Assembly (NCBI GenBank): GCA_964036195.1
Contig: OZ038460.1
Coordinates: 12,341,504-12,405,503, forward strand
Length of the DNA stretch: 64,000 bases
Source: Sphaerolaimus hirsutus
Taxonomy: Eukaryota; Nematoda; Chromadorea; Monhysterida; Sphaerolaimidae
Direction of reading: 5' to 3'
This document shows, piece by piece, positions 771 to 47,727 of the stretch. Both the position numbers and the translations under genes were made by a program. Positions within the stretch are counted from its first letter, which is position 1; each line of letters opens with the position of its first letter. The notes beneath the pieces were generated by a model that saw only the letters and a list, made by a program, of their open reading frames with translations, made no database searches and had not been told where the DNA came from.

Positions 771-1197
771 TGGCGGCCCTGCACGCTAGTTGACACTCGT
801 GTGTCGACTGTGGGCAGTGGCAGACCCTGTAAATGCCCTGAAATGTGTAAAATACCCTGTTTGCCATTTTACGTACGTTTGCCATTTTACCAACGTACAT
901 TTGTTTGCCAACGTACGTTTGCCATTTTACCGGGCATTTTACATGACATTTGACACTTTGCATGACATTTGACACTTTACAGAGCATTTTGCAGGGTCTG
1001 GGACTGGCACCTGGACTGTGACAACTCAGATTGCGGCTTCACGTGTAGCAGAGCGATCTCCAAATGTACATGCGGCGATGTTGAAAAAGAAATATTACGG
1101 CAAGTGCATTGGAAGATCCCTCTGTGACACGTGAAGCAGAAATCTGAGTTGACAGAGACAAGTTGACAAGTTGTGCTAACTGGTGCGTGGGCCGCCA
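771..1197. mobile_element. TGGCGGCC-ended MITE (host of the nested copy)
   Basis: TGGCGGCC...CTAGTTGACA at the left and GTGGGCCGCCA at the right. Excluding the nested 200-bp insertion and one CTG it is 224 bp. It begins 49 nt upstream of the acceptor of the dystrophin exon at 721. Confidence 0.65.
811..1010. mobile_element. CTG-flanked introner-family MITE, nested in another MITE
   Basis: 200 bp, ends TGGGCAGTGGCAGACCC and GGGTCTGGGACTGGCAC, flanked by CTG at 808-810 and 1011-1013. It lies inside the MITE at 771-1197 within a dystrophin intron; removing it and one CTG leaves 224 bp, the length of the uninterrupted copy at 24071. Confidence 0.8.
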
Positions 1198-12200: not shown

Positions 12201-15200
12201 ATAATCGAATTCAGCCCTCAGATCAACCAGTCTCACGTTGAAATCCTGTGAGTAAAAAAACAATAGGTATTTTAAGCATGGAGATTTGGAAATAATGATA
12301 TGAACGGGATGGAAATGGATTACGGAAGTAAACTGGGAAAATGACATACAATATTTCCTCGAAATACACCCCCCCCCCTCAAAATGGACACTATGGAAAA
12401 AAACCCCCACCCCCTCGAAATACCCCCCAAATTAAGTGTAAAGGGTACGTAAATGACAAAAGCTGATGTTTGTGATCCGGGCAATGCAGAACACACGTTA
12501 AAACAATGACTGAGTACGTTAGGACATGGCGTACACCATCTACATACTTATATAGGTCTATAGACGCTTATACATGCCAGTTATTTTACAATTTTCTACG
12601 TCTGCGTACTTTACAGACGACGATTTAGTACTGGGAGTTCAAAAAATGGCGAAATAATACCCCCCTCAAAATACCCCCCTCGTTTAACCCCCCTCAAAAT
12701 TTCCACCCTGAAAAACCCCCCGGCGGATAATTCGAGGAAATAGGGTAATAAAAAATGAAAAACACAACCCAACACTCACAGCGCACTTATCAATCTGTTG
12801 CTTTATAGCCTCATGCGTATCATCGTCGGGCATAAAATCATAATCACTGAGCTGCTCATTAAACTGACTCAACGCATGCGCGCACCTAGCCAGCCGACCT
12901 TCGTACTCCCTGGGGGCAGTCCCAGACCCTGTAAAATGCCCTGTAAAATGTCAAATGTCATGCAAAGTGTCAAAAGTCATGTAAAATGCCCTGCAAAATG
13001 GAAAACGTACGTTTGCCATTTTCCAGGGCACTTTCCATAACTTTTAACACTTTGCACAACATCTGACATTTTCCAGGGCATTTTACAATGTCCGGGACTG
13101 GCACCTGGGCCGCTTGAACTCGACCAGTCTGCGTCTGACCGCGTCGAAGTGCCGCTGCACGTGCTGCACCTGTTCCAGGCCGCGGCCGGTCGGCGCGGCG
13201 GCGGCGCGTTCGCGCAGCGCCGCTATGCACGCCGCGTGCTCGGCGAACTCGTGTTCCAGTTGCTGTGAATGGATAGGATATTGTCTGGGGGTACCGGTAG
13301 TGCTGACTAGGTAAATATACTCCGCGGACCGCGTGCTATGCATTTTTCTGAAGGAATCACTCCATTATGACGGCATCGTTAATAAAATCAAAGTGTACCC
13401 AAAAAAGCGTTTCAGAAAGGCCATTTTTTGTGAAAACGCTATTCGATCTTTTCAATTAATTTTCAGTCGTTGTGAATTTGCGTACATAAGTATCCTGCTC
13501 GCGCGTATCGACGAAGACATAAGTAATTTTGGAAGCATACTTTGCGGTCCGCCGAGTACATGTAAATTTTACGACATGAAAGGCAACGCAAAACAACAAC
13601 GGTGTTCACTTGCCCGCGCTGATTAAGCTGCCACGCTGCAATGCGTTACGAGGATTATTGTTAGCTGAACGGACCAGTGGGTACGGTTATTTCATGGCGG
13701 GTTCAAGGTTGAACAAAAACACATTAGCGACAGGAAAGTCAAGTCAAACCGCGCACAGCACATAAAGACATACCGAAATGAGCGATCCTTCCGTATCCGC
13801 CTGCTGAAAGTAATGTATGGGAAATGTGCAGCGAGAGACGGACAATGCAGCGCAGCGTGGTTGCCGTGTCGGTTTTTGTGATGTTGTTTTAAATTCGAAC
13901 AAACAAGCACAGAGACGACGAACATTTTGGGAATGAAAACGCAATTGATACACGTGCACATTGCGGGGTATGTTGGCTCGATCTCGACTCGACCCGACTA
14001 ATGCCTCGAGCTAGTGTGACTGTGTTGTTGCATGTTGTCAAAATGAAGGAATGTTGGACATGTGGAAAACTCTGAGTTTGGGAAAAATTACAATGTTTCG
14101 ATTTCGAGGTTCAAAAACGTCTGGTCCCATATCCGTTCCATTCCCTTAATCAATTTCGCAGCAATACCGAAGCTGCCGCAAATCGGCTTAGTTTGTAAAG
14201 GCTAGAAAATTTTGTCGCCCGCACTCCTTCTATTTTTGTCAATTTGATTGCACATGCAGCGCCATTTTCTAATGGCAGCGTCATTTATGATCACAGCTGC
14301 TGAGTCTCCTTTTATATCAAAAAATTTATGGAATGAATAAACCGCAACAAAATTGAAAAACAGTCTGATTAGTGCAACGCTGTGCCCGACTTCCTGATCA
14401 GGGTTGGTTTTAGTAAAATTCTTTTTACTAAAATTGTATTTTATTTTTATTAAAATTGTATTTTATTTTTATTTTATTCTTCAATTTTCCATTTTATTTT
14501 TATTTTATTCTTCAATTTTCCATTTTATTTTTATTTTTTATTTTACTTCGTGACCAGGATTGATTTGAGTAAAATTCTTTTTACTAAAATTGTATTTTAT
14601 TTTTATTAAAATTGTTCTTTATTTTTATTTTATTCTTAAATTTTACATTTTATTTTTATTTTATTCTTTAATTTTCTATTTTATTTTTATTTTTTTCTGA
14701 GATTTTGCCAACCCTGTTCCTGATACATCCGAAGTTTTCAAGCCCTGGCAAAAGCTCGAATTCAAAACTTTCGAGATCTGAGCTGTAGATAAATATAATG
14801 GCAAAGCGAAAGTGGAAATTGGGGTGACAGGGGGTGGGAAAAGCGGAAGGAAATGCAGCGAGGGAAATCCACATCAAAAATCTTTACCACCAAACCTTGT
14901 ACTCCATGGGAACATCGCTGGCGGCGAAGTCGTGTTCGAGGCGCGCGCGCAGGATGGCGTCCACGTGCGTCAGCCAGCTGCGGCACTTCACCAACGACTC
15001 CTCAAACTCTTGACACTCGTGCACGCTGCGTTCTAGATCGGAGCGGCGGCCGCGACACTGAGAAGTGATGTGAAGATGTGCGCCACATGCAATGGAATGT
15101 ATTTACACGCAGACGGTCAAAACATTAACGATATGTACCTTGGCTAAAATCTCATTACGCTTGCGCAGGTGCTCTTCATACTGTGACGGCGGCTGGACAA

Positions 15201-20900: not shown

Positions 20901-23900
20901 ATGAAGTCAGACAGCACAAATAAAGCTACGCCGGGGCTGTAAATGCAGTGCAGCGTGAAACGAAAAATACAAAAGAAAATGAGCCTACGGCAGCGGCCGA
21001 TAATGTAATTCTGAGGAAAAATAACTCCCCCTTAAACACTCTGATGAAAAATAAATCCCATGGGGTCTTAATCCAGAATATACGGTAAGCGACAACTGTC
21101 AGAAAGAGTTTCAAATTAATTATACATATCACTCAAAATCGGCCACTTGACGCCAGGGCACCAGAGTTGTTAAAATACCGGTATTTTTGGAAAGTGTAAG
21201 TGTAAGTGTAAATACACTTTCCAAATTTTGAGTATGGATACTAAAAGTGTAAGGTATTTTAAAAATACCTAGGAAAGTGTAAAAAAAGTGTATGTGTAAA
21301 AAAATTTTTTAGAAAGAGCTCTCACTGTTGAGCATTAGAAAACATCACTGTTTTCACCTTTAGATCAATTTATTTGTCATTTTCATGCATTATTTCACAT
21401 TTTACTGTTTTTTATGAAATATTTCAGACTGTAACAAATACTGTAGTGGTATGAATATCCCTAATAATGGCAGTTTTTCAGTGTTGATATTTTACTGATT
21501 AAGCAATGCAATACACACTGTTTAAATGCAAGAATGGACATGCAGCAAATGTCAATGCAAAAGCCAGTTGACTTTGTGTCCAGCTGGTGAATTTCCATTG
21601 ATCTTGTCCTTTTTACAAAAGTATGATGAAACTGTAGAATACCATGAGTACTGATCAAAGGTTGGAGATCAAAGGCTAGTTTGTACCTTTTCCATATTTT
21701 CTACATTCAATGCATAAATGCATGTGTGCACTGTGCAGTTATTTTTTGTACATGACCCTATTTTATGCTTTCTCAAAAGCATAAAACAGGGCCATCTGAA
21801 AGAAAAAAATACACTTTCTGTACCCGGGTATTTTGCTGAGGAAAGTGTAAAAAAGTGTATGGGTATTTTATGAAAGTGTAAGTGTAAGTGTAAATATAAA
21901 TACCCATTTACCCGGGTATTTTGGGTAAGTGTAAATACACTTTCGCAACTCTGCAGGGCACCATACAATGTGTGGGATGCACACGGAAAAGCGGATTTTT
22001 CACGAAACAAACCCGTTTGAATCGACTCTCGAAATCGGCTCTCACGAGAGCGGCCTTCCTAGCATCGTTTTTGTTCTCAACCGTGAGCCGCAGCGAGCGC
22101 CACCTCTCGTTGATTGCATGCAGGCGAGCCTCGATTTCCCGACATTCTTCCTGGTCATGACTAGCTTCTACTGCGGCGCGGCCAGTCTCGTGCGCGCTCA
22201 TCATTTCCCTGCCGATCGAGTCGCATCTGCAATTGCGCAATGATGAGATGAATGAGTGGAGAAAAATGTGGTAGATTATAAAGGTACTTTGCAATGAACA
22301 TGGACGTTCTCGCGCAATTTTCCAGTGTTTCCCCACCAACTATTTTTGGCTCAACCTCCAGGTATTTCCAAATCAAGGGCATTTTGAATAGCTTAGGAGC
22401 AACAGAAATAAATATACTCAGCCGACCGCAAATTGTGTGCAGAACCCTACCATAATTAAATGAATAAAAATTGTGAAAAATTTCGTAATAAATCATTCCA
22501 TCGTATAAACGAAATATTATGATGAAAACCTGTATAATTTTTGGTTCATTATTCAGATGGGTTATGGTATGTTTCCATACTAAGTGTGATGTCCGCCGAG
22601 TATAGCTATTTTTCCAACAAAATCTCGAATCCCTCTAAGATAATGTCAACAAAAAAGCTACAGCGCACCTCGAATCCAGCTCGTGCCACATCTGCGCCAG
22701 CGCCTGCCTATAATGATCATCCACATTATCCCCCTCATCACCCCCCTCCAACTGCTGCAACAGGCCAGCCTTGGCCTCGAGCCTGGACAGGGCGGCAGCG
22801 ACGCGATCGTAAACCGCATTGAACTGGTCCAGTTCGAATACGACTGCGGCGCGTGCACGTTTTGCTGGAACACCGGCGCCGGGCGGCGACCGCGGCGGCA
22901 CGGCTGTTTCTAGCGATTTGGCTCGACTCGGCTGGGCGCTGGCTATTTGCACGAGGAAATCGTCCACGGTCACTTTGCCGCTTCTGTAAAAAGTGTGGGA
23001 AAATAGACATTGGAGAAATGGGGAACCAAAGGACACTTGAAAAGCACACCTCAGCAGTAGTTCGGCATTATCATGGACTTTGGCCGCGGCCACATTCCAC
23101 CGCTCGGCCAGCAAATCGAACGCGCGTCGAATGTCGCACGCGACCGTTCCACTCTCGGCGTTGTCCAGGCGGTTGATCAGTTCGGTGGCGCAGCGAGACA
23201 CGCCCACGAAGTGATCGGTCTCGGCTACGAGCTCGTTGTACAGCGACTGAATATAGGTAGTGCGATTCGTGTTCAAATACTGTTGTGACTGCACAAGTCA
23301 TTTCATTTGTCAAGTGACAAGAGAATTGACAGGGAAAATTGAGTGGTATAACAAGTAAAATGACATGTAAATAACACAGCTCTACTCACTTACAGCTTTG
23401 CATATCATTTCGCCCATCACTTAAAGTGTTTGATTTACTTGTAACTTTTCTTGTCATCTGACAAGGTGCGAAATCGAAACAAAGTCGAAAGAACCTTTAT
23501 CAGCTGGACTTGTTCATCCACCTGTTGCTGAGTGTCCAAGTGATGGGAACCCTTCAACGTTGCCAACATGGCTTCGTGGTGGTCGAGCCACTTGCGCATG
23601 TCGCCGCAGCGCACGTTCCACGCGTCGATCGTGTCCGCCAGACCGTCAAAGCGAATCGCCCGCCGCTCAGCCCACTGGCACACGCGCATCCAGCGAGCCC
23701 CAATCGACTACGAGTTATTACAAAAAAATTTCTTTCAAAAATTGTGATAAATTTCCGTTTTCCAGGGCATTTTACACGACTTATGACACTTTACATGACA
23801 TTTGATATTTTACAGGGTCTGGGAGTGCGACCAGATCCACCCGACCTGCAATTGTTGCTGCAAATCGGCGGCGGTCATGGCGCCGGGCGGCTCGTCGGTG

Positions 23901-25130
23901 TCGTCGGTAGCGATGCTGTCCACGTTGTCGCCGTCGACGACCGCGACGAACGAGCGCAGCTCGGACACGGCCGCCTGCTCCTCCTCGATTCTCTCTTGGA
24001 ACGTCTGGAAGAGTTTGTTGGGGATAGGTTTGGGAAGGAAACCTTTTTATAAAGGACATTGTTGAAATAATGGCGGCCTACACACTTGTTGACATACGTG
24101 TGTCAACTGGTTTGTGTTAACTCAGATTTTGGCTTCTGGTTTCGCAGAACGATCTTCCAATGCACTTGCCGTAATATTTATTTTTCAACATTGCCGCAAG
24201 TGCGGTTGGAGATTGCTCTGCGACACGTAAGCTGAAATCTGGAGTTGACACAGACCAGTTGACACACGTGTGTCAACTAGTGGATGAGCCACCAATAGTT
24301 TTTAAAAAGGACCTTATAGATGGTACATACAGCGTGTAAAAATATAAATGAGGACACTACTACTTATGCAACATATCACACCAAAAATGTCCATAGGATT
24401 TGCATTTTCCTGTCAATCTTGTAAATTCAAAATAATCCAACCGCACCCGGTGCTGCGCCGCCAATTCGCGCATCAACTGCGCATCGACATCGAGCGCGGC
24501 GGCTTGTTCAATGTGCCGTTCGGCTTCAGTGAGCCAGTCGCACACGGCATCGAGTCGGTGCTGCTGCAGCAACATCAGCCGGTCGTGCAGCTGCGCCTGT
24601 CGCTGCATGGCGCTCGTGCGGAGACGTTCCCATCTGCGCGCCACGCGACTAAATGGTACTCAAACTCATTTAATCTGACGGATGAAGGAACTGTAGAAAT
24701 ATCGATAGAAGGTGACGAGTATTGACCGCAACAATCTGCCCAGAGATAACATTTGATTTTGTAACTTATCTCTTTAAAAAAATCATCTTTTTTAACTTCT
24801 TTTCACCAAAGGATCCCGTCTGATTTCTGATTTTTTCCCAACCCTAATTTCCCCACCAACAAACCTATCATGCACAGCGGCCACCTGTCTGCGCGCGGTA
24901 GCCGCCGCCGCGTCAGTAAGCCGCCCAGACCTAGCTAACGCCTGGCCGCGCTGCAGCACGCTGCCAACGGACTGCTGCGAGCCGGCCAGCCGCTCCATGA
25001 ACTCCTCGTGCTGCTTGAACTGGCTCTTCACCTGCGACAGGTCCGTGTCGCTCACCGGCGGCAGGGAGGACATGTGCTCGTCGGCGGACAGCAGCCAAGC
25101 TAACACGTCTTCTAGGTCGACCTGGTACTC
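17978..25130 (-). CDS. DMD: Dystrophin ortholog, proximal spectrin-repeat rod (exons 6-18)
   Basis: Exons: 24865-25130, 24447-24648, 23846-24004, 23495-23707, 23050-23288, 22669-22983, 22013-22226, 20396-20640, 19800-20052, 19244-19585, 18779-18936, 18211-18359, 17978-18163. The first exon opens EYQVDLEDVLAWLLSADEHM, and a later join reads LQQQLQSIGARWMRVCQWAE; both align without gaps to dystrophin repeats 1-2, which is the main evidence for the family. The rest is amphipathic triple-helix sequence with the usual Trp positions (RVARRWERL, AFDLLAERWNV, AINERWRSL). Phases match at every junction, for example AG|A giving Arg between 22983 and 23050. The intron 23708-23845 holds a piece of the CAGACCCTGTAAAATG family. 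The rod works as a flexible spacer between actin and the membrane complex. I am sure of the coding status, slightly less of a few exact donors (20396, 18211). Confidence 0.82.
20118..20385. mobile_element. ATACTC family MITE next to a dystrophin donor
   Basis: TATACTCCTCGAACTGAATGC to GCATACTTTGCGGTCTGCTG; its right end is 10 nt from the donor of the exon ending at 20396. Confidence 0.6.
20732..21087. mobile_element. TACCGTATT family MITE
   Basis: TACCGCATATCCTCAAATAA to CCAGAATATACGGTA; holds a direct repeat of GGTGGAAAAGATGTTGGGTC (or its inverse). In a dystrophin intron. Confidence 0.5.
21162..21953. mobile_element. hAT-type MITE, duplication CAGGGCAC
   Basis: 792 bp, CAGAGTTG...CAACTCTG, exact duplication CAGGGCAC on both sides. 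Subterminal GTGTAAGTGTAAATACAC repeats point inward from each end. In a dystrophin intron. Confidence 0.8.
22416..22604. mobile_element. TATACTCAGCCGACCGC MITE
   Basis: TATACTCAGCCGACCGC to GTGATGTCCGCCGAGTATA with an AT-rich core containing CCATAATTAAATGAATAAAA. Further copies at about 9150-9348 and, partial, 53980-54130. Confidence 0.6.
23762..23831. mobile_element. Truncated introner-family copy in a dystrophin intron
   Basis: CCAGGGCATTTTACACGAC to GGGTCTGGGAGTGCGAC matches one end of the family; CAG follows. It occupies about half of the 138-nt intron between exons 23846-24004 and 23495-23707. The other end is lost. Confidence 0.65.
24071..24294. mobile_element. TGGCGGCC-ended MITE, uninterrupted
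   Basis: 224 bp, TGGCGGCCTACACACTTG to GTGGATGAGCCACCA, with subterminal inverted repeats TTGACAYACGTGTGTCAA. Lies in a dystrophin intron. Confidence 0.65.
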
Positions 25131-25484: not shown

Positions 25485-28400
25485 CTTCATAGTCTCAGAC
25501 ACGCGTCTGTGTCTGTTAGCCTTAACAACAGCGGTGGCCTGAGGGTCCAACTTGGCCAGCGGGCGGCGCTGCACCACATCCACCGCAACGGGCTCTTGCA
25601 CATTCTCATCCTTGTCAGGTATGGGATCGACGAGCTCGTCGTTTAAGTCGACCGGCAGCTCGTCCAAGGGGAGCACGTGCGCGCGCGGCAGCACTTGATA
25701 CAGACTGTACAGGTAAAGCGTGGTGGCGTACGCGTCGGTCGGCTGGTCGGCGCGCGTGTACTCTGCGCGGGTGCATTGGTCAGTGTAAGACATAACTAGG
25801 GATGAAAAAAAAACAATTTTCAACGACCTGGTTTTGAAAAAGGGTTTTTTAACCGTAAAATTTTAAATGTGTATATGAAATTGCGAAATTAGATTGCACG
25901 CAAGAAATTGCAAAATACCACTGTGCTAAGTACTTAAATTTTTGGCTGAGATTAAAAAAAAAATTTTTAAACACCTCTGAAAAAACCCGGCCATCCCTGC
26001 AGGCAGAAAGAATCAAGCTGAACGGAATGGCTCTACAAACTAGGGTGTCAAAAAAGTTTTCTACGGAAAACGGAAAACGGAAAGGTAAAAATTTTTCACT
26101 TTACGGAAAGGTAAAAAAAAATTTCTGCCGGAAAACTGAAAGGTAAAAAAATTTCACTCAGCCGAAAACGGAAAGGTAAAAAAAATTGTCGACCGGAAAA
26201 CGGAAAAATGAAATGCCGGAAAACGGAAAACGGAAAGCGAAATTTTCACGGGAACGAAAAAAATAAAGTGAAATTTGCACAGTAATAGACAAATTTGCAG
26301 AAGGAAAACCTGCATGCAGGTTTGCCTGTTTGGCTTTGATTGTGGTAGCTGTACATTCTGCAACTATGGATCATGCCAGTAACTTCACTTGTAGCTCAAG
26401 CTTAACTGAACCAACAAAAAATCATCAAAAGGTAGCAAAAATACACTACAACAACAATAAGAATTAAGCAAAAGTGAACTTTGATGAAACTGAACAGTAA
26501 AAAGTATACTCAGCGGACTGCAAAGTATGTGTCCAAAACTACTTTGTGTTTTTTACAGATTTGGATACAGATAAAAATTATGAATGACAGAAGAACCTGG
26601 TAGTTAAAAACACCATAGTGGAAAAAGATAAATACAGATTGGAAAAACAATGGAAAAATGCCAGAAAACTGAAAATCGAGCCAGAAAATGGAAAAATGGC
26701 CTGGAAAAATGGAAACGGAAAGGTAAAAAAAATTTCAGCCGGAAAACGGAAAAATGGGCCGGAAAAACGGAAACGGAAAGGTAAAAAATTTTCAGCTGCC
26801 GGAAAACGGAAAGGTAAAAAATTTTCGGCTGCCAGAAAACGGAAAGGTAAAATTTTTTCGGCTGCCGGAAAACGGAAAACGGAAAGGTAAAAAATTTCCC
26901 TGCGGAAAGGCGGAAACGGACAACGGAAATTTGACACCCTACTACAAACCATCAGGATGAAGCAACTGCGGCACATCCCACTGGCCGGCGGCCGTTTCCA
27001 AAACGCAGCGACAACGGTCACTCGGCTCGAACGTGGCCACCGACTCCAAATCGAACGCGGTCGGTCGGAAGTGGTGCACGATGGCGCAGAAGGCCATGCA
27101 GTCGCGCCAATCGCTGTGCAGGTTGCGCACGCACACATCGTCGTATCTGGGCGTGTGGTTGGCGAGTGTTTATGATAACACTGCTATTATGTGACACATC
27201 ACATGCGGGGACGTAGCCAGGATTTTTGAGCGGGAGAGGGCGGATTGTATACGGAGCCCGGGAACGGGGGGGGGGGCGGCGCCCCCCCCCCGTAAAATTT
27301 AAGCCCTACATTGAGGGATTGGGGCCATGGCGCCAGCGCCATTCGCCATGGCGCCACTGGCGTTGGCATTAGCGCCAAAGACAGCTGTATAAATATGTCT
27401 GTATTTACAAACATATACAGTGACGTGGACAATATACTTTCACATTTTCAGTGCATTTTCACAGTATTTGAGGCTGCTGCGACCGGTCGCGTGAAGGAAA
27501 AATGCGCGCTTGCGCGCAAAAAGTTTTTTAATTGGTGACAAAATCGCTTTATGGAAGTGGCACATTTTTTGTCTGACCCGGGAAGGGGGGGGGGGGCGGG
27601 AAGGGGGGCTGCAGCCTTCCCGCCCCCCCTGGCTACGTCCTTGATCACATGCACAAGAGCGACCGACTGCTTGAGCGCGAGCAGACACCATCGCACGAGC
27701 ATCTGCTGCAGCGGCATCTTGCCGTCGTCGGGCAAGTCGTGGCTGTCGGCGAACAGCTTCCAGTGCAGCAGCACGCAGAGCCACAGCAGCCGCAGCACGG
27801 CGCTCTCGTCGCCGTCGGCCACGTCCTCGGCGCGGGGCGTCGGCGACGCGTCGCCGTTGTCGCTGGTGTCAACGGACAGACGATCGGTGATGAAGCGCAG
27901 CACCGACGACACGTTGGCTACAGCGTGCGCGCGCAGACGGCCGCGCTCTCGTGGCTGGGGCAGTTTAATAGTGTACTTTGGTCGGATGGTAACTAGGCTT
28001 GCATCACTTTTCGATATTTTTGTAAAAAATTTCGATATAGATAGTGGATCAGGGCCGTATCCAGGGGGGGGGGGCGGGGGGGGGGCTGCAGCCCCCCCCT
28101 CCCGGGGTGAGACCTAAAAAGTCCCGGAAAATGCAATTTTTCCTATACATTTTTTGATGTTTCTTAAAAATTTTTGCGCGCAAGCGCGCAATTTCTTCCC
28201 CATACATTGTATTTTTAGCGGATCAGTCCCTGTAAACAAATATCCTTGAAAATGAACACATTTTTGCGACTTTCGCCGCATATGTATGCATATTTAAATC
28301 TATACAAAGCGGTTCCTGGCGCTGGCGCCAACGCCAATAGCGCCATGGCGTGGCGCCATGGTATAGCGCTAGCGCCAAAACGCCTTTCCGTCCCTATATA

Positions 28401-31375: not shown

Positions 31376-31905
31376 CAGGGGTATCTTGAATTTTGACCCT
31401 CCGAGTGGTTGGATAGATAGCAAATCGCTCCTCTGGAGGGATAGATAGCTGAAAAATTTTCTGGGGGGGGGTTGGGGGGGGGTTGCGGCGGGGTTGGGGG
31501 GGCGGTTGGGGGGGTGTGGTGGTTCGATATATAGGCTTTTTCGAGGCATAGAAGGAAGAAAAAGGAGAAAAATCGCTAAAAGTAGGTGTAAAATGGCTCA
31601 AAATGGGTATACAAGAGCATATAGTACTAAATATAGCTGAAAATAGGCAAATAGGAACCAGAACCATGATTTTGGAAGTGAAATCTATAAAAATGTATGA
31701 AAAATAGCAATTTTGAGCGAAAATTGGGGTATAGTTTTGCAAAAATCGCTCCAGATGGGTAGATAGCTGGGCGATTTTGGGGGGGTTTAGGGGGTAGTAG
31801 ACCAAACTTTTGCCTCTGGGATAGATAGATAGCTAACAGCCTCCAGGAGAGATAGATAGATGGGTGGTTTGGGGGGATAACCCCCCCCCCCATTCAAGAT
31901 CCCTG
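31376..31905. mobile_element. CAGGGGTATCTTGAAT element
   Basis: Left CAGGGGTATCTTGAAT, right ATTCAAGATCCCTG. The interior has GATAGATAGCT runs and long G tracts. It ends just before the Ty3/Gypsy element. A diverged relative is near 54540-54680. Confidence 0.6.
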
Positions 31906-31919
31906 AGGCATCTGTCAAT

Positions 31920-32344
31920 TGTTGCAGTGTAACATGCATTATGCGGGTTTACCATTGAGTGGGCGCCGCGGCTGTTGCAGCAGGACGCCGTGCTGCACGG
32001 CGGACTGCTGCCACACCCGCGACGCTCACGTTTCAGGATCCCATACATAACGGGTTGATTTTGCCATGTGGGCAGTTCAGTTCTTTTCTGCCCTTCGCGG
32101 GCATTTATTTTGTATGGCCGTACGGCCCTAAAAGCGCATTGAGAGAAAATATGAAGTGATTTAATTAAAGTTGTCTTGTTGCTCGGCGACGGTTTCGGAA
32201 GTAATATAAACCCAACTTGCACTCAATCACAAACGCATTCTCTCTTCCATCTCGCCGACGTCAGCGAGCTCCGTTCTGATTGGAGGCTCGAAGTCGGACA
32301 ACACGTTGGACCAGCGGGCTTTTGGCGCAGTCCAGCGTGTTACA
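31920..32344 (+). repeat. 5' LTR
   Basis: 425 bp, TG...CA ends. It contains the GTAATATAAACCC stretch at about 32199-32211, a plausible TATA region, and differs from the 3' LTR at two visible positions (C/G near 32011 and T/C near 32180). Confidence 0.95.
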
Positions 32345-32362
32345 TGGTGATCGTACAGCTCA
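32345..32362 (+). other. Candidate primer-binding site
   Basis: TGGTGATCGTACAGCTCA starts immediately after the 5' LTR. A TGG start complementary to a tRNA CCA end is expected for a minus-strand primer site. I cannot assign the tRNA. Confidence 0.5.
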
Positions 32363-32489
32363 TAAAATTTTAAAAACTGAACCCATGCGCAAAATAGGCC
32401 GGCGGCAACAAGCACCGGTAGCGCCATAAATTTTCCACCGCTGCATTTAACGCCGGTGGCGCGCCACAAGAGCGCTCAGTAGACACAGG

Positions 32490-35400
32490 ATGTCTGACAC
32501 TGACGAAAACGCCGCAGGCGGCTCAGGGGTAACGAACCCCCCAAAAATTGTCCGACAAGTGACATTTACAGAGCGCGAGCTCACACAAAAAATCAATGAA
32601 TGGACAGCACTCCCCGACAGATGGGCGTTGCTAAATGCCGGAAACTCCCTCAACGAGCATAGGGACGACACAATTGTGGACAGCAAAAGAAAATGGCCCA
32701 AATTCAACTCGCCATGGAAAGATGGCACGGAAACACTGGCAAAAAAAGTACTGCGGTTAGCGGAAAGATACTTCAGCGAAACCACCAACGGGCATATCAC
32801 GATGGAAGACCCGGAGGGCGAGTTTGATGATGACGCGGACCCGCTCAGTTCACCAGTCATCCGCCCAGTGGCCGGAATATTGAAACGCGCGGCGTATGTT
32901 CCCACACCGCGGCGCGAATTGAAGGCCCACACACAGGCCACTGACACATCAACGCTAATAACCATAATTCAGCAACAGCAACAACAACAGGCACAGGAAC
33001 ACCAGCAACAAATACAATTACAACAGCAACAAATACAAATGCAACAGCAACTAATGACCCAACTCGCGGGCGTAATGGCACAACAGTCAAAACCGCCAAG
33101 CCCCGCACAGAGCGCCACAACAAGCAAACTGCAAAGAAATGACCAGAAAGTGACAATGGATATGCCACAGCCAAGCCGCCCAAGAGACCCGTGGGCATGG
33201 GAAACTGACGATCGTCTGGCAACGCTGCCACAAGGCTCAATTCTCGAGCGCATGATTGTGTATATGGAAGAATATGCACTGACACCAGAAGATGGGCTGC
33301 CACGCTTGAGTGCGCAAACAATACCCCAGGACCGCATGAGCGTAGGACACGTAGCATCCGCGGCAAACAAACAAAACAAATTTGATGGAGACCAAAACAG
33401 CAAAACAGGCCCATTCAAGTTTTGGCTTCACATGGTCATGCAGCAGTCAATGGGGGTACCGGAAAGCCAACAACAGCTATTCTGGAACATTGTTTTTCAA
33501 CAATGTCTGATAGACGATGCCCAAGACAGATACATGAGTATCAGAATTGCCAGGCGCCACGACATTTTGTACGTGGTGGACAAGCTCGTCGAGACTTACC
33601 GATTGGACCACCAAGTTTATTCAGTAACAGATTGGTACAATCTAAAAGCCGTGACAGGAGAAACCGTCACAGCCCTGTACACGCGCCTGTGCACGAAATT
33701 TTACCATATCAGCGAAAAATTGTCTGATAAAGACCGGGAGCAAATGATTGGGGACAAACTGTTCAGCGAAGTGCCAAAGTTAGTCCCAGCATCTTGCTGG
33801 TACATGTGGCAGCAGCGCTGGGCAGAGAATTGCTGCACACTGAACATGGCAGTCACAATGATGGAGGCAGCGCGGAAAAACGTGGAAAAAACGCGCGCGC
33901 AGCGCAGGGACGAACAGAACCAACGGCCCCGCCCAAGATACCGGAATTGGCAATCAGACCGCCGAAACGACCAGGGCTGGCAAACAGAACCAAAAGCGCA
34001 AAGCACATTGATGAGCAGCAGCGCACCGGCAGAAATTCGAGCAACATTTGACCCAAAAACACACAAGGGCCCATGGTGCACCTATCACCTGCACCAGGGG
34101 CCAATGCCACACGACCCATCAAATTGTTTCCTGGATGACAAGTCACAAAAATTCGTGCCGAACAGGGCGGAAAACGCAAAACGAAACTTGGCCAGGCGCG
34201 GACAAACAGAAGACGACGCAAAACGAATGATGGAGGAAAAGTGCAAAGAACTAGGGATCCCGCTACAAGGGGAGAATATGACGAGCAGGTGCACCCAGGA
34301 AGAGTATGAGGAAGAAAATGCAGTGTTTGGGGGTGAAAGTGAAGACGACAACTGGGGCGGCCTAGACGAATGGGTGCCCACAGTCGCAAGCACAAAGAAC
34401 ACTGAAAATGCCAGAATTGGGGCAACCCAATCACCAGATCCGATGGCAACCATAATCTTCCAAGGGGTGCCGATAACTGGGCACATCGACACAGGCTGCA
34501 ATATTGGCCTGTTTATCGAAGACACAACACTGGAAAGTGTCTGGGCCAAAGCCAACTTAAGCCCAACAGAAGAACGCGCAAAGTTCCGCCCATACACGGG
34601 AAGCCACATTCGAACATCGGGAGACATCATAAAAGGAGAATGGCTTCGGATTTACGACATGTGGGTGGAACACACTACCCCGGATGGGGTGCGACACAAA
34701 GACAAACTGCCAGCAGTGGTGAAACTGCGGGAATTTCTGCCCCCAGCAGACCCGCTGCTCATCGGACGCGCAGCCATCTGGGGACCACTACAAATAGTGC
34801 AGACAGCACACAAGGAGCTAGAAAGACTAGCGAAAGAATTCGAGCAAGAAGTAGGAGTCCTAAAAACAAGCGAGGACACTACATTCCGCACGGCAGGAGT
34901 GCACACATTGCACAATGTCACAATTTTGGCAGCTCAACAGCACCAAATCAAAGTCGGCATTGACAAAAGCCACCAAATTCCGGACCAGACTGAGACAGGC
35001 GCAAGAGTTGCATATGCCCTCGACCCATATGTCCGCAATCATAGCGGGCAGTTGCAGGAGCGAGTGCCAGGGATAGCATGCACAGCAGCACTGCAATGGG
35101 AACGGGAGTGGCTAGAAAATGCGGAATTTCCACTGTATGTCACAAACACAACTGGCGCAGACCAATACATACCAGCACACACACAAGTGGCAGAATTGTT
35201 TACCACAACACACGTGCTGGTCACAGAAAGCCAAGACAGTCAGTCAGCACAGGGACTAAAAGAGCTCCCACAGCCACCAACCCCAACTGAGACAACCCCG
35301 AAATGGGCAGAACTAACGAATGAACAAAAAGATCGGATCGAAGAAATTTGGCAGCGACTGCCAAAAGAAAGTCAAGATGCGCTACCAGCACAGATGCGAG

Positions 35401-38400
35401 ACAGATTCAAGAATGTACTGGCGAGACAAGAGGGGCTATTCAGCCTCACAGAATATGACATCGGAGAAACGGAAGTCACTGAACACAAAATTGAATTAGT
35501 GCCAGGGGCAGAACCGATCAAATGTGCAGCACGGTTCGAGACACCCCCGAAACGAGCATTTGTCTGGCGGACGATTGACGAAATGCTCAAGAAAAAATTG
35601 ATCATACCGTCAGCATCACCATGGGCATTCCCCCTGGTGATTGTCCCAAAGGGGAAAACAGACTATCGGCTGTGTTTGGACTTTAGGAAATTGAATGACG
35701 TCACAGTGCGAGATGCATACCCCCTCCCCAGGATAACTGACATGTTCCAACAGATGAGTGGCAGGGCTCTATTTTCCACAATGGACGCCAGTTTTGGATA
35801 CTACAATGTCACGATTTCTGACCCCGCCACAAGGGACATGGTTTCGTTTGTTTGTAGTCGGGGACAGTACAGCTACACAAGAATGCCGCTAGGGCTAAAA
35901 AATGCCGGAGCAAGTTTCCAAAGGCTCATGGACTGCGTGTTAACGGGGCTTAATCAGGAACCCGAGCGCCCAGCATTTTTTGCATACATCGACGATTGCT
36001 TAGTGGCTAGCAACGAGCCAGAAGAGCACCTACGACACCTAGTGCAGCTATTTGACGGACTCAAATGGGCAGGAATTAGACTCAAACCAGAAAAGTGCTA
36101 TTTTTTTTGTGCAAAAGTGAAATTTTTGGGTTTTGAATTAAGCAAAAATGGAATTTCCCCAAAACGAAGCAATGTGGCTGCCATCTTGGACATGCCCACA
36201 CCGGAAACAAAACAGACAATCAAGACATTTCTGGGAAAGGCGGGATACTTTAGTCAACACATCCCGGGATTCCACAGAATGGCAGCACCATTAAACGAAA
36301 TGGCAAAAGGAAAGTATAGAGTGAACGGAAATGACCCGATTCCCAAATGGGAACAGTGGACGGCAGAGGCAAAAACGGCGTATGAAACATTGAAACACAA
36401 ACTGAGCACAGCGCCAGTGCTGGCCCACCCAAATCGAGCGAAAACGTACTATTTGTACACGGACGCCTGCGATATCGGGTTAGGAGCGGTACTAATGCAA
36501 CAAAGCGACACAGACCAGACGAAATTAAGGCCCGTGTCCTTTGTATCCAAGAGGCTACCCACGACACACAAGAATTGGTCCACCATCGAAAAGGAAGCCC
36601 TAGCGTGCACATGGGCACTGGATAGATTGGGAGATTACTTAGATGGGCAGAAAGTGGTACTAAGAACCGACCACAAGGCATTAGTCAATGCACTAATAAA
36701 ACCAGCACACGGGAAAATCGAAAGATGGACGCACCGTTGGGCAATGCGATTGTCACTTAAAGACTTAACGATTGAATACTGTCCAGGGGAACAAAATGTC
36801 ATGGCGGACGCACTTAGCAGGAACCCCATAGACGACCCAGACAGTATAGCATTCCAACAAGCAAGTGAAAGCATTCGAGTGCCACTAGACAAATTATGCC
36901 CACACATGGCACGGGCTACAAAAGGACCGGTGGACTGGAGAAAAGAGCAAAAGCGAGACTCGGAATGCCAAAAGATACGAGAAAAATTAGAAAATGGCAC
37001 TCTGGGCCAAGCTCAGTACTCGATTCGGGATGACATCATCCAATACAAAGGACCCCAGGGATCTCAACCACTGGCACCAGACCACATGAAAAAGTGGATC
37101 TTGGAACGAGCACATGCAGGAATACTGGGAACACACGGGGGCACTGAGCAAACAGTGCAACACATCAGCAAAGTGGCAGCATGGCCGCGCATGAGACAAG
37201 ACGCCGCAGAATTTGTGAAAAATTGCCACGTGTGCAAAATTACAAAAGACGGGCAGAGGAAGTGTTTCAGCCCCCTATTTCCAGTTGACCCAGGAACACA
37301 TCCATGGCAGAAGATGGCAGTAGACACGACGCCAATGCCAGAGCACAAGGGGCACTGGCACCTACTAGTAATGGTAGATTATCTCACAAGGGCCGTAGCA
37401 CTTGCACCATTGCGCCAGCTAACCGGAAAAGCAGTGGCGAGCGCCATTGAACGACACGTTATCTGCAGATTCGGGCCACCAAAAGAAGTGGTAAGCGACA
37501 ACGGCACAGAGTTCGTGAACAAAGACATTACAGAATTAGCAAAAAAATGGGGATTCAAACAGCGCACCACCACCCCATATCACTCACAGTCAAATGGGCT
37601 GGCAGAAAGAGCTATTCGAAGTGTCGAACAGCTAACCAGACAGTGGTCCCACAAAAACAAAAACTCACGGGACTGGCCAGCAGCTTTACCAGAAATCACG
37701 CTACGACAAAACACAGCGTACAACAGGGACATAGCACACACACCTTTTGAACTTCTTTTTGGCTACATGCCATCCATTTTAGAAGGGGCTAGCAACCCCT
37801 CAGACAATGAACACAGTGAAGAGGCTGCGAGCAGCCCGCCAAGCAAAAACACACGCTTACAAAAAACACTGAGCGCACTAGCGTCACACATCCCGAATGC
37901 CGTGGAGAGACCCGGCTCATTACAAAACTCTTGGCAGCGGGCCAGAGCACAGCTAAAAAGTGCCCAGCAGCGGTACAAAAACGCGTATGACAAAAAACCC
38001 GGGGCGGAACTAAAAATTGGAGACAGAGCCTATGTTGAAAACAAATGGGGAATGTCAGTAGAACAAAAAATTTGCCCACTACGCACTGGACCCTATGAAG
38101 TAATTGGAATTGACAAGTCAATCGCAATTTTGGATACAGGGGACCGTATCCAACGAATACCGATAAACACCTTGACAACGGAAAATAAAATAAAAAACGA
38201 AAAAACAAGCGCAACGGCCGATTTTGCTACAGACATGGACGACAAGTCAAAAATCCCACAGCTGGAAGGAGCGCAGAACCGGCCGCCAACGTCAGCCGCA
38301 GTGGCGCAGCAACCACCCAAACTCAAGGCACTGGCGCAAATGCGCAAGCGGAAGGCGGTAGAATGGGTGGGTTGCGTTAGACATCTATGTGGTGCCACAG

Positions 38401-38705
38401 ACATCTCACACACAAAATGTTGCACTTTGCAGGCCCCAATGTCAAACGACCAGGCACAGAAGCAAAATGAAGTGCAGCAGGCGGTTGCCAAAGCGAACGC
38501 GGCGAAAGTTTTGGCAGGTTCGGTAAATATGTCAACTTTCAAAACAACCCTGGCACGTAGCCAAAACACCGAGATTGCAGGCTCTCATGGACAAACGCGC
38601 CCGGCGCAGCGCAGGGCGCCCATTCCGGCCAACCGCAGGGCTGCGGCCGCGCCGCCAGAAACAAAACCAGGTCAGGAAAGGCCGCGAATTTTTTGGAATA
38701 CTTAA
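32490..38705 (+). CDS. Gag-Pol polyprotein of the Ty3/Gypsy element
   Basis: One uninterrupted frame of 2,071 codons. The gag part has a Gln-rich segment (residues ~157-200) and, near 530-547, a Cys-His cluster (CTYH...H....C) in place of the usual CCHC knuckle. The aspartic protease site DTG is at 667-669. The reverse transcriptase has LCLDFRKLNDV, PLGLKNAGASFQ and the catalytic YIDD at 1166-1169. RNase H has YTDACD near 1323-1328 and LRTDHKAL. Integrase has the HHCC zinc region (~1541-1585) and D1612, D1670, E1706 with 35 residues between the last two; a GPYEV motif lies at 1867. Gag and Pol are in one frame, so no frameshift is needed. Only the TAA at 38703 separates it from a further open stretch in the same frame. 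Confidence 0.95.
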   Translation: MSDTDENAAGGSGVTNPPKIVRQVTFTERELTQKINEWTALPDRWALLNAGNSLNEHRDDTIVDSKRKWPKFNSPWKDGTETLAKKVLRLAERYFSETTNGHITMEDPEGEFDDDADPLSSPVIRPVAGILKRAAYVPTPRRELKAHTQATDTSTLITIIQQQQQQQAQEHQQQIQLQQQQIQMQQQLMTQLAGVMAQQSKPPSPAQSATTSKLQRNDQKVTMDMPQPSRPRDPWAWETDDRLATLPQGSILERMIVYMEEYALTPEDGLPRLSAQTIPQDRMSVGHVASAANKQNKFDGDQNSKTGPFKFWLHMVMQQSMGVPESQQQLFWNIVFQQCLIDDAQDRYMSIRIARRHDILYVVDKLVETYRLDHQVYSVTDWYNLKAVTGETVTALYTRLCTKFYHISEKLSDKDREQMIGDKLFSEVPKLVPASCWYMWQQRWAENCCTLNMAVTMMEAARKNVEKTRAQRRDEQNQRPRPRYRNWQSDRRNDQGWQTEPKAQSTLMSSSAPAEIRATFDPKTHKGPWCTYHLHQGPMPHDPSNCFLDDKSQKFVPNRAENAKRNLARRGQTEDDAKRMMEEKCKELGIPLQGENMTSRCTQEEYEEENAVFGGESEDDNWGGLDEWVPTVASTKNTENARIGATQSPDPMATIIFQGVPITGHIDTGCNIGLFIEDTTLESVWAKANLSPTEERAKFRPYTGSHIRTSGDIIKGEWLRIYDMWVEHTTPDGVRHKDKLPAVVKLREFLPPADPLLIGRAAIWGPLQIVQTAHKELERLAKEFEQEVGVLKTSEDTTFRTAGVHTLHNVTILAAQQHQIKVGIDKSHQIPDQTETGARVAYALDPYVRNHSGQLQERVPGIACTAALQWEREWLENAEFPLYVTNTTGADQYIPAHTQVAELFTTTHVLVTESQDSQSAQGLKELPQPPTPTETTPKWAELTNEQKDRIEEIWQRLPKESQDALPAQMRDRFKNVLARQEGLFSLTEYDIGETEVTEHKIELVPGAEPIKCAARFETPPKRAFVWRTIDEMLKKKLIIPSASPWAFPLVIVPKGKTDYRLCLDFRKLNDVTVRDAYPLPRITDMFQQMSGRALFSTMDASFGYYNVTISDPATRDMVSFVCSRGQYSYTRMPLGLKNAGASFQRLMDCVLTGLNQEPERPAFFAYIDDCLVASNEPEEHLRHLVQLFDGLKWAGIRLKPEKCYFFCAKVKFLGFELSKNGISPKRSNVAAILDMPTPETKQTIKTFLGKAGYFSQHIPGFHRMAAPLNEMAKGKYRVNGNDPIPKWEQWTAEAKTAYETLKHKLSTAPVLAHPNRAKTYYLYTDACDIGLGAVLMQQSDTDQTKLRPVSFVSKRLPTTHKNWSTIEKEALACTWALDRLGDYLDGQKVVLRTDHKALVNALIKPAHGKIERWTHRWAMRLSLKDLTIEYCPGEQNVMADALSRNPIDDPDSIAFQQASESIRVPLDKLCPHMARATKGPVDWRKEQKRDSECQKIREKLENGTLGQAQYSIRDDIIQYKGPQGSQPLAPDHMKKWILERAHAGILGTHGGTEQTVQHISKVAAWPRMRQDAAEFVKNCHVCKITKDGQRKCFSPLFPVDPGTHPWQKMAVDTTPMPEHKGHWHLLVMVDYLTRAVALAPLRQLTGKAVASAIERHVICRFGPPKEVVSDNGTEFVNKDITELAKKWGFKQRTTTPYHSQSNGLAERAIRSVEQLTRQWSHKNKNSRDWPAALPEITLRQNTAYNRDIAHTPFELLFGYMPSILEGASNPSDNEHSEEAASSPPSKNTRLQKTLSALASHIPNAVERPGSLQNSWQRARAQLKSAQQRYKNAYDKKPGAELKIGDRAYVENKWGMSVEQKICPLRTGPYEVIGIDKSIAILDTGDRIQRIPINTLTTENKIKNEKTSATADFATDMDDKSKIPQLEGAQNRPPTSAAVAQQPPKLKALAQMRKRKAVEWVGCVRHLCGATDISHTKCCTLQAPMSNDQAQKQNEVQQAVAKANAAKVLAGSVNMSTFKTTLARSQNTEIAGSHGQTRPAQRRAPIPANRRAAAAPPETKPGQERPRIFWNT

Positions 38706-39488
38706 TTTCGACAACAGCAAATTTCTGGGCACGCAGGTGCTATCAGACCGGCGGGGTGGGGAAAAACGCTGCTGCCAACGCCAGTCAACGTACGCCCAAC
38801 CGCCGAAGGTGGGAAAAGTGGTTTTTTGGTGGAAACACAACTGAATAACATTGTCACACAAAACAACTCCCATTACGCAGTACGCAACGTGCTGTTGGAG
38901 CTGCAAAACAGCAACGACTTGCTGTCCAGCGCCCTGCAAAACCTCACCCTGCTCTCGACGGAGGCAATTCCCATGTTGAGATGGTCGCTCAACGCGGAGG
39001 GGCGCATGCGCGGTGAGAGGGACACGTTCCGGGGGCAAGCTGAGCAGCACCAAGCCGAGCTGAAACTAACAGCCGCGAAACTACAGGAAACAAACACACA
39101 GGTTTCAATACCACTGTCTTTTTCCAATAAACGCAACACATACAAGCCAAAATAATTCGCTCAGCTCGAAGCGGCAAAGCGGCAGTTGGAGCAGTGCCAG
39201 CCGCCGGCAATTACCGCGCCGCCCGGCGACACGAGCGGCAGAAATGTGTCGGCTGAATTGACGGGCGAGGATCTACTACCAGACGAGTTGCAGGAGGTAG
39301 GGCGGCAAGGCAACATGCCCTTCTTTCCATTTACCCGGCTGCCACCACTTCTGTCGCCGATACAGCCAACGCCGCGCCAGTGCCCGCCATCCCCGATTTA
39401 TTCCAGCGCCGGTGAGAGCCCTTCGGACAGCGAACCAGCAGTGGAAAAGAGCCCCCGCACACTCCGCGGAAGGAAGGAAGATGAGTGA
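38706..39488 (+). CDS. Possible spliced C-terminal extension of the retrotransposon protein
   Basis: After the gag-pol TAA the same frame stays open to 39155, and again from 39156 to 39488. Two GT-AG segments whose lengths are multiples of three would each remove the intervening stop: 38671-38736 (66 nt, CCAG|GTCAGG to CACGCAG|GTG) and 39102-39164 (63 nt, ACACAG|GTTTCA to GCTCAG|CTC). The joined product would add Leu/Gln-rich coiled coil (NVLLELQNSNDLLSS, ETNTQLEAAKRQLEQ) and a Pro/Ser-rich acidic tail ending RTLRGRKEDE. No transmembrane segment is apparent, so it does not look like an envelope protein. A separate third protein made from a spliced RNA is the alternative. Confidence 0.5.
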
Positions 39489-39728
39489 AAAATTTTCAAA
39501 TCGCGTTTTATTTGTATTTTCTATTTTTGTCTGGTTTTACGTTTTATCAGAGCCGATTTTGGTGGTGGGTTTGCCCCTTTTGGGCCGAGTTGTAAAGTGA
39601 TTTATTTCTTTTTTCTCATTTAACCAGCTAATACGGGTATGGCGTGGAAATTCACCATTTTTAGGCGTTCGATACTCATTTATTATTTATTTTTTCGTGA
39701 TTTTTTCGGAGGCCCCCCCAGGTGCCTT

Positions 39729-39737
39729 GGGGGGGAG
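39729..39737 (+). other. Polypurine tract
   Basis: The run GGGGGGGAG directly precedes the 3' LTR TG, as expected for the plus-strand primer of an LTR retrotransposon. Confidence 0.6.
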
Positions 39738-40162
39738 TGTTGCAGTGTAACATGCATTATGCGGGTTTACCATTGAGTGGGCGCCGCGGCTGTTGCAGCA
39801 GGACGCCGTGCTGCACGGCGGACTGCTGCGACACCCGCGACGCTCACGTTTCAGGATCCCATACATAACGGGTTGATTTTGCCATGTGGGCAGTTCAGTT
39901 CTTTTCTGCCCTTCGCGGGCATTTATTTTGTATGGCCGTACGGCCCTAAAAGCGCATTGAGAGAAAATATGAAGTGATTTAATTAAAGTTGTCTTGTCGC
40001 TCGGCGACGGTTTCGGAAGTAATATAAACCCAACTTGCACTCAATCACAAACGCATTCTCTCTTCCATCTCGCCGACGTCAGCGAGCTCCGTTCTGATTG
40101 GAGGCTCGAAGTCGGACAACACGTTGGACCAGCGGGCTTTTGGCGCAGTCCAGCGTGTTACA
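39738..40162 (+). repeat. 3' LTR
   Basis: 425 bp, nearly identical to the 5' LTR; followed by CAAT, the second copy of the target duplication. Confidence 0.95.
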
Positions 40163-45946: not shown

Positions 45947-45954
45947 TGACGTCA
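45947..45954. promoter_or_regulatory. Palindromic CRE/ATF site upstream of EMC8/9
   Basis: A perfect TGACGTCA octamer lies 62 bp before the EMC8/9 start codon, where a proximal promoter or 5' UTR is expected. CREB/ATF factors bind this motif. No TATA box is evident. The function is inferred only from position and sequence. Confidence 0.35.
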
Positions 45955-46015
45955 GAGCAACGGGCTGCGCTGGCCGAAACTCTTCGCCATAGTCCCGTCC
46001 GATTGTCGCTGGCGC

Positions 46016-47727
46016 ATGGCGGCGAGTGGCGGCGCGACCGGAGGCGGCGGCGTCGACGAGGGCCCGTCGGCGGGCTGCGAGTTCACGCTGGCGGCGGCCG
46101 CCTACGTGAAGATGGTGCTGCACGCGCTCAAGTACCCGCAGCTGGCCGTCAACGGGGCGCTGGTGGCCGAGCGCCGGCGCGGCAACGTGTGGCGCATCGT
46201 CGACTCGGTGCCCATGCTGCACCAGGTGGGCGGGCTGGCCGCGCCGCTCGAGGCCGCCCTGTGCCAGATCGACGCCGCCTGCCAGGCCGCCAGCTCGAGC
46301 ACCTGCCAGCTGGTCGGCCTCTACCACGCCAACGAGCGATTCGACGACACTGCGTTCGTTGCTTTGGTTTTAGTTTGGGCGGCTGGGCGTGATGCTTGGA
46401 ATTGTGCGTTAACTCGATTCAGATCGAAACGTTTACTCCGCTTCTGTGTGTTATTGATGAATGCCGGTAAAATTGCATGAGTGAGAATTGAGTCACCACA
46501 ATGACGTCACATCCAAATGATTACATGGCGTTTGACATCTCTTGTGTTTATTCCGTGTATACCCGTGTGCAGGCTCGATCATTTTGTCAGTCGAGTGGGC
46601 GAGAAAGTTCATTCCGTCTTTCCTGATGCTGTGATGCTCAGAGTGAGTTGTTTGCCGGTCAACGAGGGTACCAATAGGTATTATTTGCATCCATTTAAAG
46701 CCATTTTCCTTTCAGCTCCTTGCATAAATTTGGGATTGCAAGCATGTATAAGCAAAGTGGGAGGATATTCTTTACTTCACTAATATATCACTGATTCACA
46801 TGGTGTGATATTGCACGCAATGCTAAATGTGATTTTACGAAATCGATTGACATCAAAATGTCTAAACTATTCGCAGGTTTTTTTGTTGACCCCCGAAATA
46901 AGCCACTTTTACATCCACTCATCCGTACACGCAGATCGAGAATAAGCTGTTAGGTGCAGCGGCCGGCGATTCTCCATGTTACGTGGCACATTCATACTCT
47001 GTTGAAGCTAAGTCATGGAAGCCCGCTAATCGGTTAGCCCTTTGTTATGACGTCGTTTTCTGCGCTCAGCTCGTCCAGCGCCATTCGAAATTCATCCGAA
47101 ATTTCACTTCGAAAAAGTCCAGTTCAGGGGTCTTGTAGATTTTGGACCCATGTGGGATCTCAAATAGATCGTAAGTCGTTCTCTCGGGGGTGTATAATTT
47201 CTCCGAACGGTGTTGGGCAAGCTATGTCGCTCGTGTTGTCGGGCCAATGCTATTTTGAAAGGTCTAAATTTGTGGATATTATGCACTTTTTGAATGATTC
47301 TGGTATTAAGATAAATAGCTGTAAAGGGTAGGGATGACCGTCTTTTGAAAAAATATCTTTTAAAAAGCAGTCGCTAAATAATAATTTTTTCCATCCCTAA
47401 TAAAAAGCGAAGAAAAGCGCCGCGAGCGGGAAAAACCCTCACCCGTTCCCGATTACAATACTACCTTAAACGCGGCTTACCATCTACCTACCCCCTACAA
47501 AACCCCCCTCAATGAAGTCTAGATTTTGAAGACCCCCCCATTGATGCCCTCAACTTTTCAGTGTCCGATTGGAGAACGAGGAGCGCACCATGGAGGCGGT
47601 GTCGTCGTGCGTCCAAACAAAGATGTACCGATATCTGGTAGATTTCGACAATCACCTCGACAACCCGGCACTCGACTATTGGAACCGTCAGCTCACTAGC
47701 AAGATTGTTTCACTTATGCACGACTGA
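46016..47727 (+). CDS. EMC8: ER membrane protein complex subunit 8/9
   Basis: EMC8/9 is a cytosolic subunit of the ER membrane complex, which inserts transmembrane segments of client proteins. Four exons: 46016-46353, 46573-46642, 46935-47032, 47562-47727, giving 223 residues (vertebrate proteins are about 205-210). Family landmarks are YVKMVLHALKYPQLAVNG near the N-terminus, LVGLYHANERF, the VGEKVHSVFPDAVMLR helix, and the C-terminal YLVDFDNHLDN. The fold is an MPN domain without the metal-binding JAMM residues. All junction phases agree (2, 0, 2). The N-terminal Ala/Gly-rich run is longer than in vertebrates. Vertebrates have EMC8 and EMC9 paralogues; most invertebrates have one gene, so the choice of symbol is conventional. 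Confidence 0.92.
47330..47398. mobile_element. Short TAGGGATG element in EMC8/9 intron 3
   Basis: TAGGGATGACCG...TTTCCATCCCTA, about 69 bp. No clear duplication. Confidence 0.5.

Follow-up and report, generated by a model that had tools for sequence, protein, structure and literature searches.

How does a gene come by a new intron? The origin of introns is a long-standing question, and mechanistic examples from animals are few. The window analysed here, a stretch of 64,000 nucleotides from the nematode Sphaerolaimus hirsutus, holds an intron at 12910-13104 (minus strand) that bears on this question. It interrupts a long spectrin-repeat gene on the minus strand, which starts near 28.7 kb of the window and extends to 6.2 kb or beyond. 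A preliminary description of this DNA had claimed that the 195-nt intron is a 192-bp element with inverted ends plus one CAG, that the GT donor lies in the element end and the AG acceptor in the duplicated CAG, and that removing it restores an arginine codon. The coordinates and both CAG copies agree with this. The inverted-repeat element occupies 12913-13104 (minus strand, 192 bp), with GTGCCAGTCCC as its donor-side end and GGGACTGCCCC as its acceptor-side end. CTG, which is CAG on the minus strand, flanks it on both sides: the target-site copy at 13105-13107 is retained by the upstream exon, and the copy at 12910-12912 lies within the intron, where its AG is the acceptor. The GT donor (13103-13104) comes from the element end. 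With slashes marking the splice sites, the minus strand across the junction reads ...AAG CGG CCC AG/GTGCCAGTCCC...GGGACTGCCCC CAG/G GAG TAC GAA..., and excising 12910-13104 rejoins the AGG of the arginine codon. Very probably, a non-autonomous DNA transposon (MITE) with a CWG target entered an exon of dystrophin, where it immediately served as a spliceosomal intron, as one member of an introner family that would have done the same in other genes.

Is the host gene dystrophin, as the same description held, and does the element sit in it as an intron? In Pfam searches, the predicted exons matched the calponin-homology domain at 2.2e-10 and the spectrin repeat at 4.2e-9. The gene's identity is marked by the calponin-homology exon at 26950-27146 and by the exon of spectrin repeat 1 at 24865-25130 (both minus strand; both from the splice model and Pfam, the second also from the PDB). 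Repeats 1-3 match a solved dystrophin chain in the PDB, 9c3c_D, at 1.5e-29, and the 248 residues spanning the element junction match residues 1353-1549 of the dystrophin chain at 2.5e-7. On these domains and alignments, the gene carrying the element intron is dystrophin. The splice model combined codon usage with GT-AG ends and the usual splice consensus, and it was blind to the element; being limited to GT-AG introns, it is therefore silent on other splice types. It predicted 84 exons, 31 of which were retained by eye, many of the dropped ones being only a few bases long. The model picks exactly the intron 12910-13104, its training exons having been chosen by eye with both exons flanking this intron among them. 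The upstream exon (13105-13262, minus strand, 158 nt) starts in phase 0 and ends in phase 2, and the downstream exon (12780-12909, minus strand, 130 nt) starts in phase 2 and ends in phase 0, both resting on the model and the PDB alignment. Phases agree at 29 of the 30 junctions of the kept 31-exon chain; the mismatch, from exon 31 to exon 36, lies elsewhere.

The rest of the window holds other features. An LTR-retroelement-like unit, recognised by eye at 31836-40040, has a 2,084-aa frame at 32451-38702 (plus strand) and near-identical translations at 31836-32222 and 39690-40040. An exon of an EMC8/9-type gene at 45950-46477 (plus strand) matches Pfam UPF0172 at 2.1e-26, and a stretch at 58962-59249 (plus strand) is DEK-like by eye, with no Pfam match.

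What sort of intron is this? The two halves of the inverted repeat, 12908-13008 and 13009-13109, directly adjoin each other and show 84% complementarity across 101 nt. Pairing of its first with its last 40 nt gives the intron a score of 25, against 4-8 for the 29 others in the kept chain. The self-complement score of 132 lies within the range of three other introns (102-134), whose repeats are internal and not terminal. These large inverted repeats (scores 126, 134 and 102), located in the introns that follow model exons 15, 29 and 56 of the dystrophin gene, are possibly other elements. As RNA, with 10 nt of flanking exon at either end, the intron folds to -141.7 kcal/mol, whereas its shuffled versions average -59.0 (z -19.1; 0 of 200 shuffles equal it), and the predicted hairpin would place the donor beside the acceptor. 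The usual 5' splice site follows GTRAGT, and the donor GTGCCA is a poor fit to this consensus, which weighs against the proposed intron birth.

Did the element make the intron, or did it settle in an old one? Boundaries were counted along the printed alignments to one solved dystrophin chain and set against human exon ends computed from assumed exon lengths. The element junction falls at residue 1464/1465 of solved dystrophin, in phase 2; on this assumption the human exon ends closest to it are 1448, that of exon 31, and 1506. Among the other model boundaries in the aligned stretches, five of six coincide with human exon ends, those at residues 494, 534, 1357, 1411 and 1506 matching exactly the ends computed for human exons 12, 13, 29, 30 and 32. 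The sixth, between model exons 14 and 15, lies close to residue 427, where the alignment has a gap, and disagrees with the computed human end at 443.7; the donor of model exon 14 may be wrong in the model. Because five of these six boundaries sit on human ends and its own does not, the element intron reads as an extra one, gained rather than invaded, among old dystrophin introns that appear to have stayed in place. The preliminary description had pointed out that invasion of an old intron would follow if distant dystrophin genes shared this intron in both position and phase; the assumed human map, the one comparison made, has none there.

A deletion could in principle lead to the same picture, had the element entered an old intron whose remainder was later removed, leaving the element alone. 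Entry into old introns does occur: a 138-nt intron at 23708-23845 (minus strand; model and alignment), at the human exon 13/14 position, contains a decayed fragment of the element. Moreover, human intron 31 would sit 16 codons upstream of the element junction and is absent from the splice model. Against this, 12910-13104 contains zero old-intron nucleotides and its target copies are intact on both sides, its position and phase are unlike those of the assumed human introns, and the flush structure repeats in unrelated genes. We therefore consider such a deletion very unlikely. The piece in 23708-23845 is not flush, with 15 nt of non-element sequence at the 5' end of the intron; judging from this case, the family can also enter old introns, and then it looks different.

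If the dystrophin intron was gained by insertion, do sister copies lie in genes in the same manner? The preliminary description had not seen the family and had suggested a genome search; sister copies were indeed found exactly between coding flanks. Searching 348.5 Mb in 762 contigs with the dystrophin element intron gave 2,911 first-look candidates. The best 40 of the 2,911 were scored and all 40 are copies; being those most like the dystrophin copy, they are biased to intact, well-preserved copies and are not a random sample. They amount to 36 separate insertions, one insertion being common to L006, L012, L020 and L021 and another to L017 and L023 (gene copies or repeated contigs). Among the 40 scored, the closest sister to the dystrophin element is 91% identical, and a 12-way alignment of copies has a mean column identity of 89%. 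Both ends are readable in 35 of the 36 insertions, those of L037 being unreadable. With the GTGCC end on the left, the flank triplets of these 35 are CAG/CAG in 15, CTG/CTG in 7, CTG/CAG in 3, CAG/CTG in 2 and other in 8. Identical CAG or CTG thus stands on both sides in 22 of 35, a CWG pair with differing middle base in 5 (CTG/CAG in L003, L007 and L008; CAG/CTG in L006 and L024) and an otherwise different pair in 8. Some of the mismatched CWG copies could go back to mutation, some to selection for AG and some to a mismatch brought in with the insertion. Element positions 6-8 vary with the flank: the GTGCCAAT-type end (AAT) accompanies a CTG 5' flank in 8 of 11 cases and a CAG flank in 2 of 21 (Fisher p 0.0006). 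A splicing cause for this link between flank and donor was weighed; two subfamilies may account for it. The window itself has two further copies. One is full-length (811-1010, minus strand), with CTG on both sides (CAG on minus) and no recognised coding flanks. The other is shortened (63263-63384, plus strand), with CTG on both sides and flanks without resolved coding; it was weighed as another intron-forming copy and dropped, there being no recognisable frame running across it.

Are the copies introns? The element and one triplet were removed, or the sequence was cut to the first AG (L017, L028 and L040), and the join was translated. Sense frames were picked by codon score or by eye, mostly one frame each, and a crossing match had to reach E 0.001 or better. 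The sense test covered 30 of the 36 insertions (L002, L004, L016, L035, L037 and L038 were left out). In 12 of these 30 a match crosses the flank-joined junction, and the similar elements lie exactly as introns would in unrelated genes. Besides the dystrophin copy itself (L001, by its PDB match of 2.5e-7), the matches are to a nicotinic receptor (L005, 8e-25), a GPCR (L013, 7e-15), an amino-acid transporter (L019, 2e-25), HSP70 (L039, 1e-28), a TIL domain (L006, 8e-11), cuticlin/ZP (L034, 2e-22) and Patched (L018, 1.5e-21, reaching only 3 residues beyond the junction). An SLC1-type symporter (L022, 3e-15) was matched by a tested join that retained 6 nt, in frame, before a poly-C CAG acceptor. 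A thrombospondin repeat (L017, 1e-12) appeared after a re-cut and a frame change, the first frame and cut having given no credible match. Vinculin (L025, 8e-7) and a myosin head (L028, 8.7e-4, re-cut to AG) are both under Pfam's cut-off. The HSP70 copy begins GCGCC, and its predicted intron is GC-AG; in L013 the donor end is GTTCC in place of GTGCC. The other 18 of the 30 gave no Pfam match across the junction at E 0.001 or better (L003, L007, L008, L009, L010, L011, L014, L015, L024, L026, L027, L029, L030, L031, L032, L033, L036 and L040). Among them, L008 has a vinculin match downstream of the junction only, L014 is GRK2-like by eye with no crossing Pfam match, L032 has by eye a plausible sense start exon and L040, re-cut to AG, is tyrosinase-like by eye, the last two with no Pfam match. 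L030 has a C8 match of 0.012 that does not cross the junction. Its joined exon aligns to the uninterrupted L006 exon, gap-free at the junction, with L012, L020 and L021 scoring alike; an intron position that is absent from an orthologue or paralogue was thus found both at dystrophin 1464/1465 and in L030 against L006.

Which way do the copies face? Every one of the 12 homology-confirmed insertions faces in the sense direction (two-sided binomial p 0.0005). An antisense control, in one frame each of 20 of the 36 insertions, found no credible gene: L028 gave DUF702 at 1.1e-4, above Pfam's cut-off, and one other gave 0.024, neither of them convincing. This control is weaker than the sense test, with fewer insertions and one frame each, the sense frames having been partly picked by hand and in some cases re-cut. 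Automatic scoring of 35 insertions by codon usage gave 21 sense, 6 ties and 8 antisense (L004, L028, L032, L033, L034, L035, L038 and L040), L028 and L040 having been scored on joins cut a fixed 3 nt beyond the element, before their re-cut to AG. The antisense call for L028 was set aside because the AG re-cut reads myosin, and that for L034 because of its sense cuticlin/ZP match.

These results also bear on whether the dystrophin copy is spliced at all. Were it a polymorphic disrupting insertion, or its locus a pseudogene, neither the phase-consistent kept chain nor the alignment of the exons along solved dystrophin would be expected; the sense-only pattern suits splicing, and a very recent insertion is disfavoured because the closest scored sister is only 91% identical. 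We see very little chance that the copy is unspliced. Least probable of all is removal at the DNA level, as with the internal eliminated sequences of ciliates, in which a transposase would restore one target copy with no splicing: it would explain how genes that look intact can carry CTG/CTG copies with no need for a non-AG acceptor, yet excision is orientation-free and the 12 confirmed insertions are all sense, and the AG ends of L003, L007, L008 and L028 despite a donor-side CTG are favoured by splicing and not by excision. We infer instead that the dystrophin element is spliced, that it was born from one transposition event and that it was moved by a transposase of the NuwaI type.

What happens at copies where the acceptor triplet is CTG? 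This is the case in 5 of the 12 homology-confirmed copies (L005, L006, L013, L018 and L019) and in L030, and exact removal there therefore requires GT-TG splicing. The encoded proteins argue for exact removal of the element. The PDB match of L005 runs gap-free to alpha-7 receptors through the WFPFD stretch, that of L013 is gap-free through the TM6 CW-P stretch and that of L018 is gap-free to six residues beyond the junction; the PDB search with L019 found no solved relative. Judged by eye, the sequence downstream of L005 contains the next receptor exon, and that upstream of L019 contains an earlier transporter exon. The distinct loci L006, L012 and L020 of the L006 gene all retain CAG...CTG. 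Their pairs, compared over one 198-nt frame, have synonymous/other differences of 3/2, 4/3 and 1/3 and element differences of 4, 9 and 11, which is consistent with a living gene, the numbers being small and the last pair not silent-biased. Alternative introns were sought as GT or GC to AG, in-frame and stop-free, with donors from -30 to +40 and acceptors from -70 to +40. L006 has no in-frame stop-free GT-AG alternative within the stretch searched; L005, L013, L018 and L019 have 3-4 with GT each, every one altering the junction residues. A report on human genes (PMC2374985), in the portion available to us, describes TG as an alternative 3' splice site in 36 of them. We give even chances to the reading that the family gives rise to introns whether its target is CAG or CTG, the CTG copies being spliced as GT-TG by the U2 spliceosome, with TG tolerated beside the donor at the base of a hairpin of about 190 nt. 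If this is true, the target preference of a transposon would fix the acceptor rule for newborn introns, and the spliceosome would accept transposon-delivered non-AG acceptors. Four copies (L003, L007, L008 and L028) have CTG on the donor side and AG at the end, the state expected to remain after selection for an AG acceptor. The CAG/CTG insertions L006 and L024 go the opposite way, and AG selection does not explain them. If the CTG copies are spliced, CAG/CAG, CTG/CAG and CTG/CTG would make a natural series for the study of acceptor evolution.

How, then, would such an intron be born? Insertion of the MITE into an exon, presumably cut-and-paste by a NuwaI-like transposase, would duplicate the CWG target triplet. 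The GTGCC end of the element would supply the 5' splice site and the duplicated CAG the 3' splice site (AG, or TG where the triplet is CTG), and the other CAG would stay in the exon, leaving frame and protein unchanged. It seems reasonable to assume that the spliceosome recognises the element at once, perhaps helped by the hairpin, and that antisense exonic insertions are lost through selection. One family would thus combine target duplication with copies placed exactly as introns in a dozen identifiable animal genes and, for the further copy L030, with a paralogue exon that has no insertion, which would open intron birth in an animal to direct study.

How does the family compare with known systems? 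The literature searched, in which the family was never sought by name, gave no earlier report of it. In the part of their report available to us, Gozashti et al. (2022, PMC9860276) record introners in two animal groups only; introners in animals have therefore been reported already, and the kind is not new. A family described there resembles the one in S. hirsutus in taking its 5' splice site from the element and its 3' splice site from the target duplication, and in having many genic copies, but it has 4-bp target-site duplications and no evident TIR as far as that part goes, whereas the S. hirsutus family, in an animal, has a 3-bp CWG and a near-complete inverted repeat. The introner elements of Amoebophrya, as presented in the available text (PMC7789003), share boundary direct repeats, hairpin-predicted inverted repeats and many non-GT-AG ends; Amoebophrya, however, is a dinoflagellate with highly varied ends, while here they are GT, or GC in L039, at the donor and AG or TG at the acceptor. 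Fritillaria borealis is an animal, in which the accessible account (PMC13326754) describes a YAY triplet often at both ends of the main non-canonical introns, with mostly non-AG acceptors, AG/AC and AG/AT as the commonest non-canonical ends and about 5% of introns canonical; in contrast, the kept dystrophin chain here fits a GT-AG model, one that allowed no other ends. A likeness on the transposon side is offered by NuwaI (PIF/Harbinger, PHIS superfamily), which in the sections at hand (PMC4482050) has CWG target duplications, is reported from animals alone and has a TIR usually starting GGG. Like NuwaI, the S. hirsutus family has CWG target duplications of 3 bp (the identical CAG or CTG pairs at 22 of 35 insertions) in an animal host. 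Of its two ends, the acceptor-side one reads GGGGC inward and the donor-side one begins GTGCC; only short copies were seen here. By these features of its sequence, it is very probably an animal introner family whose CWG target sites are of the NuwaI type.
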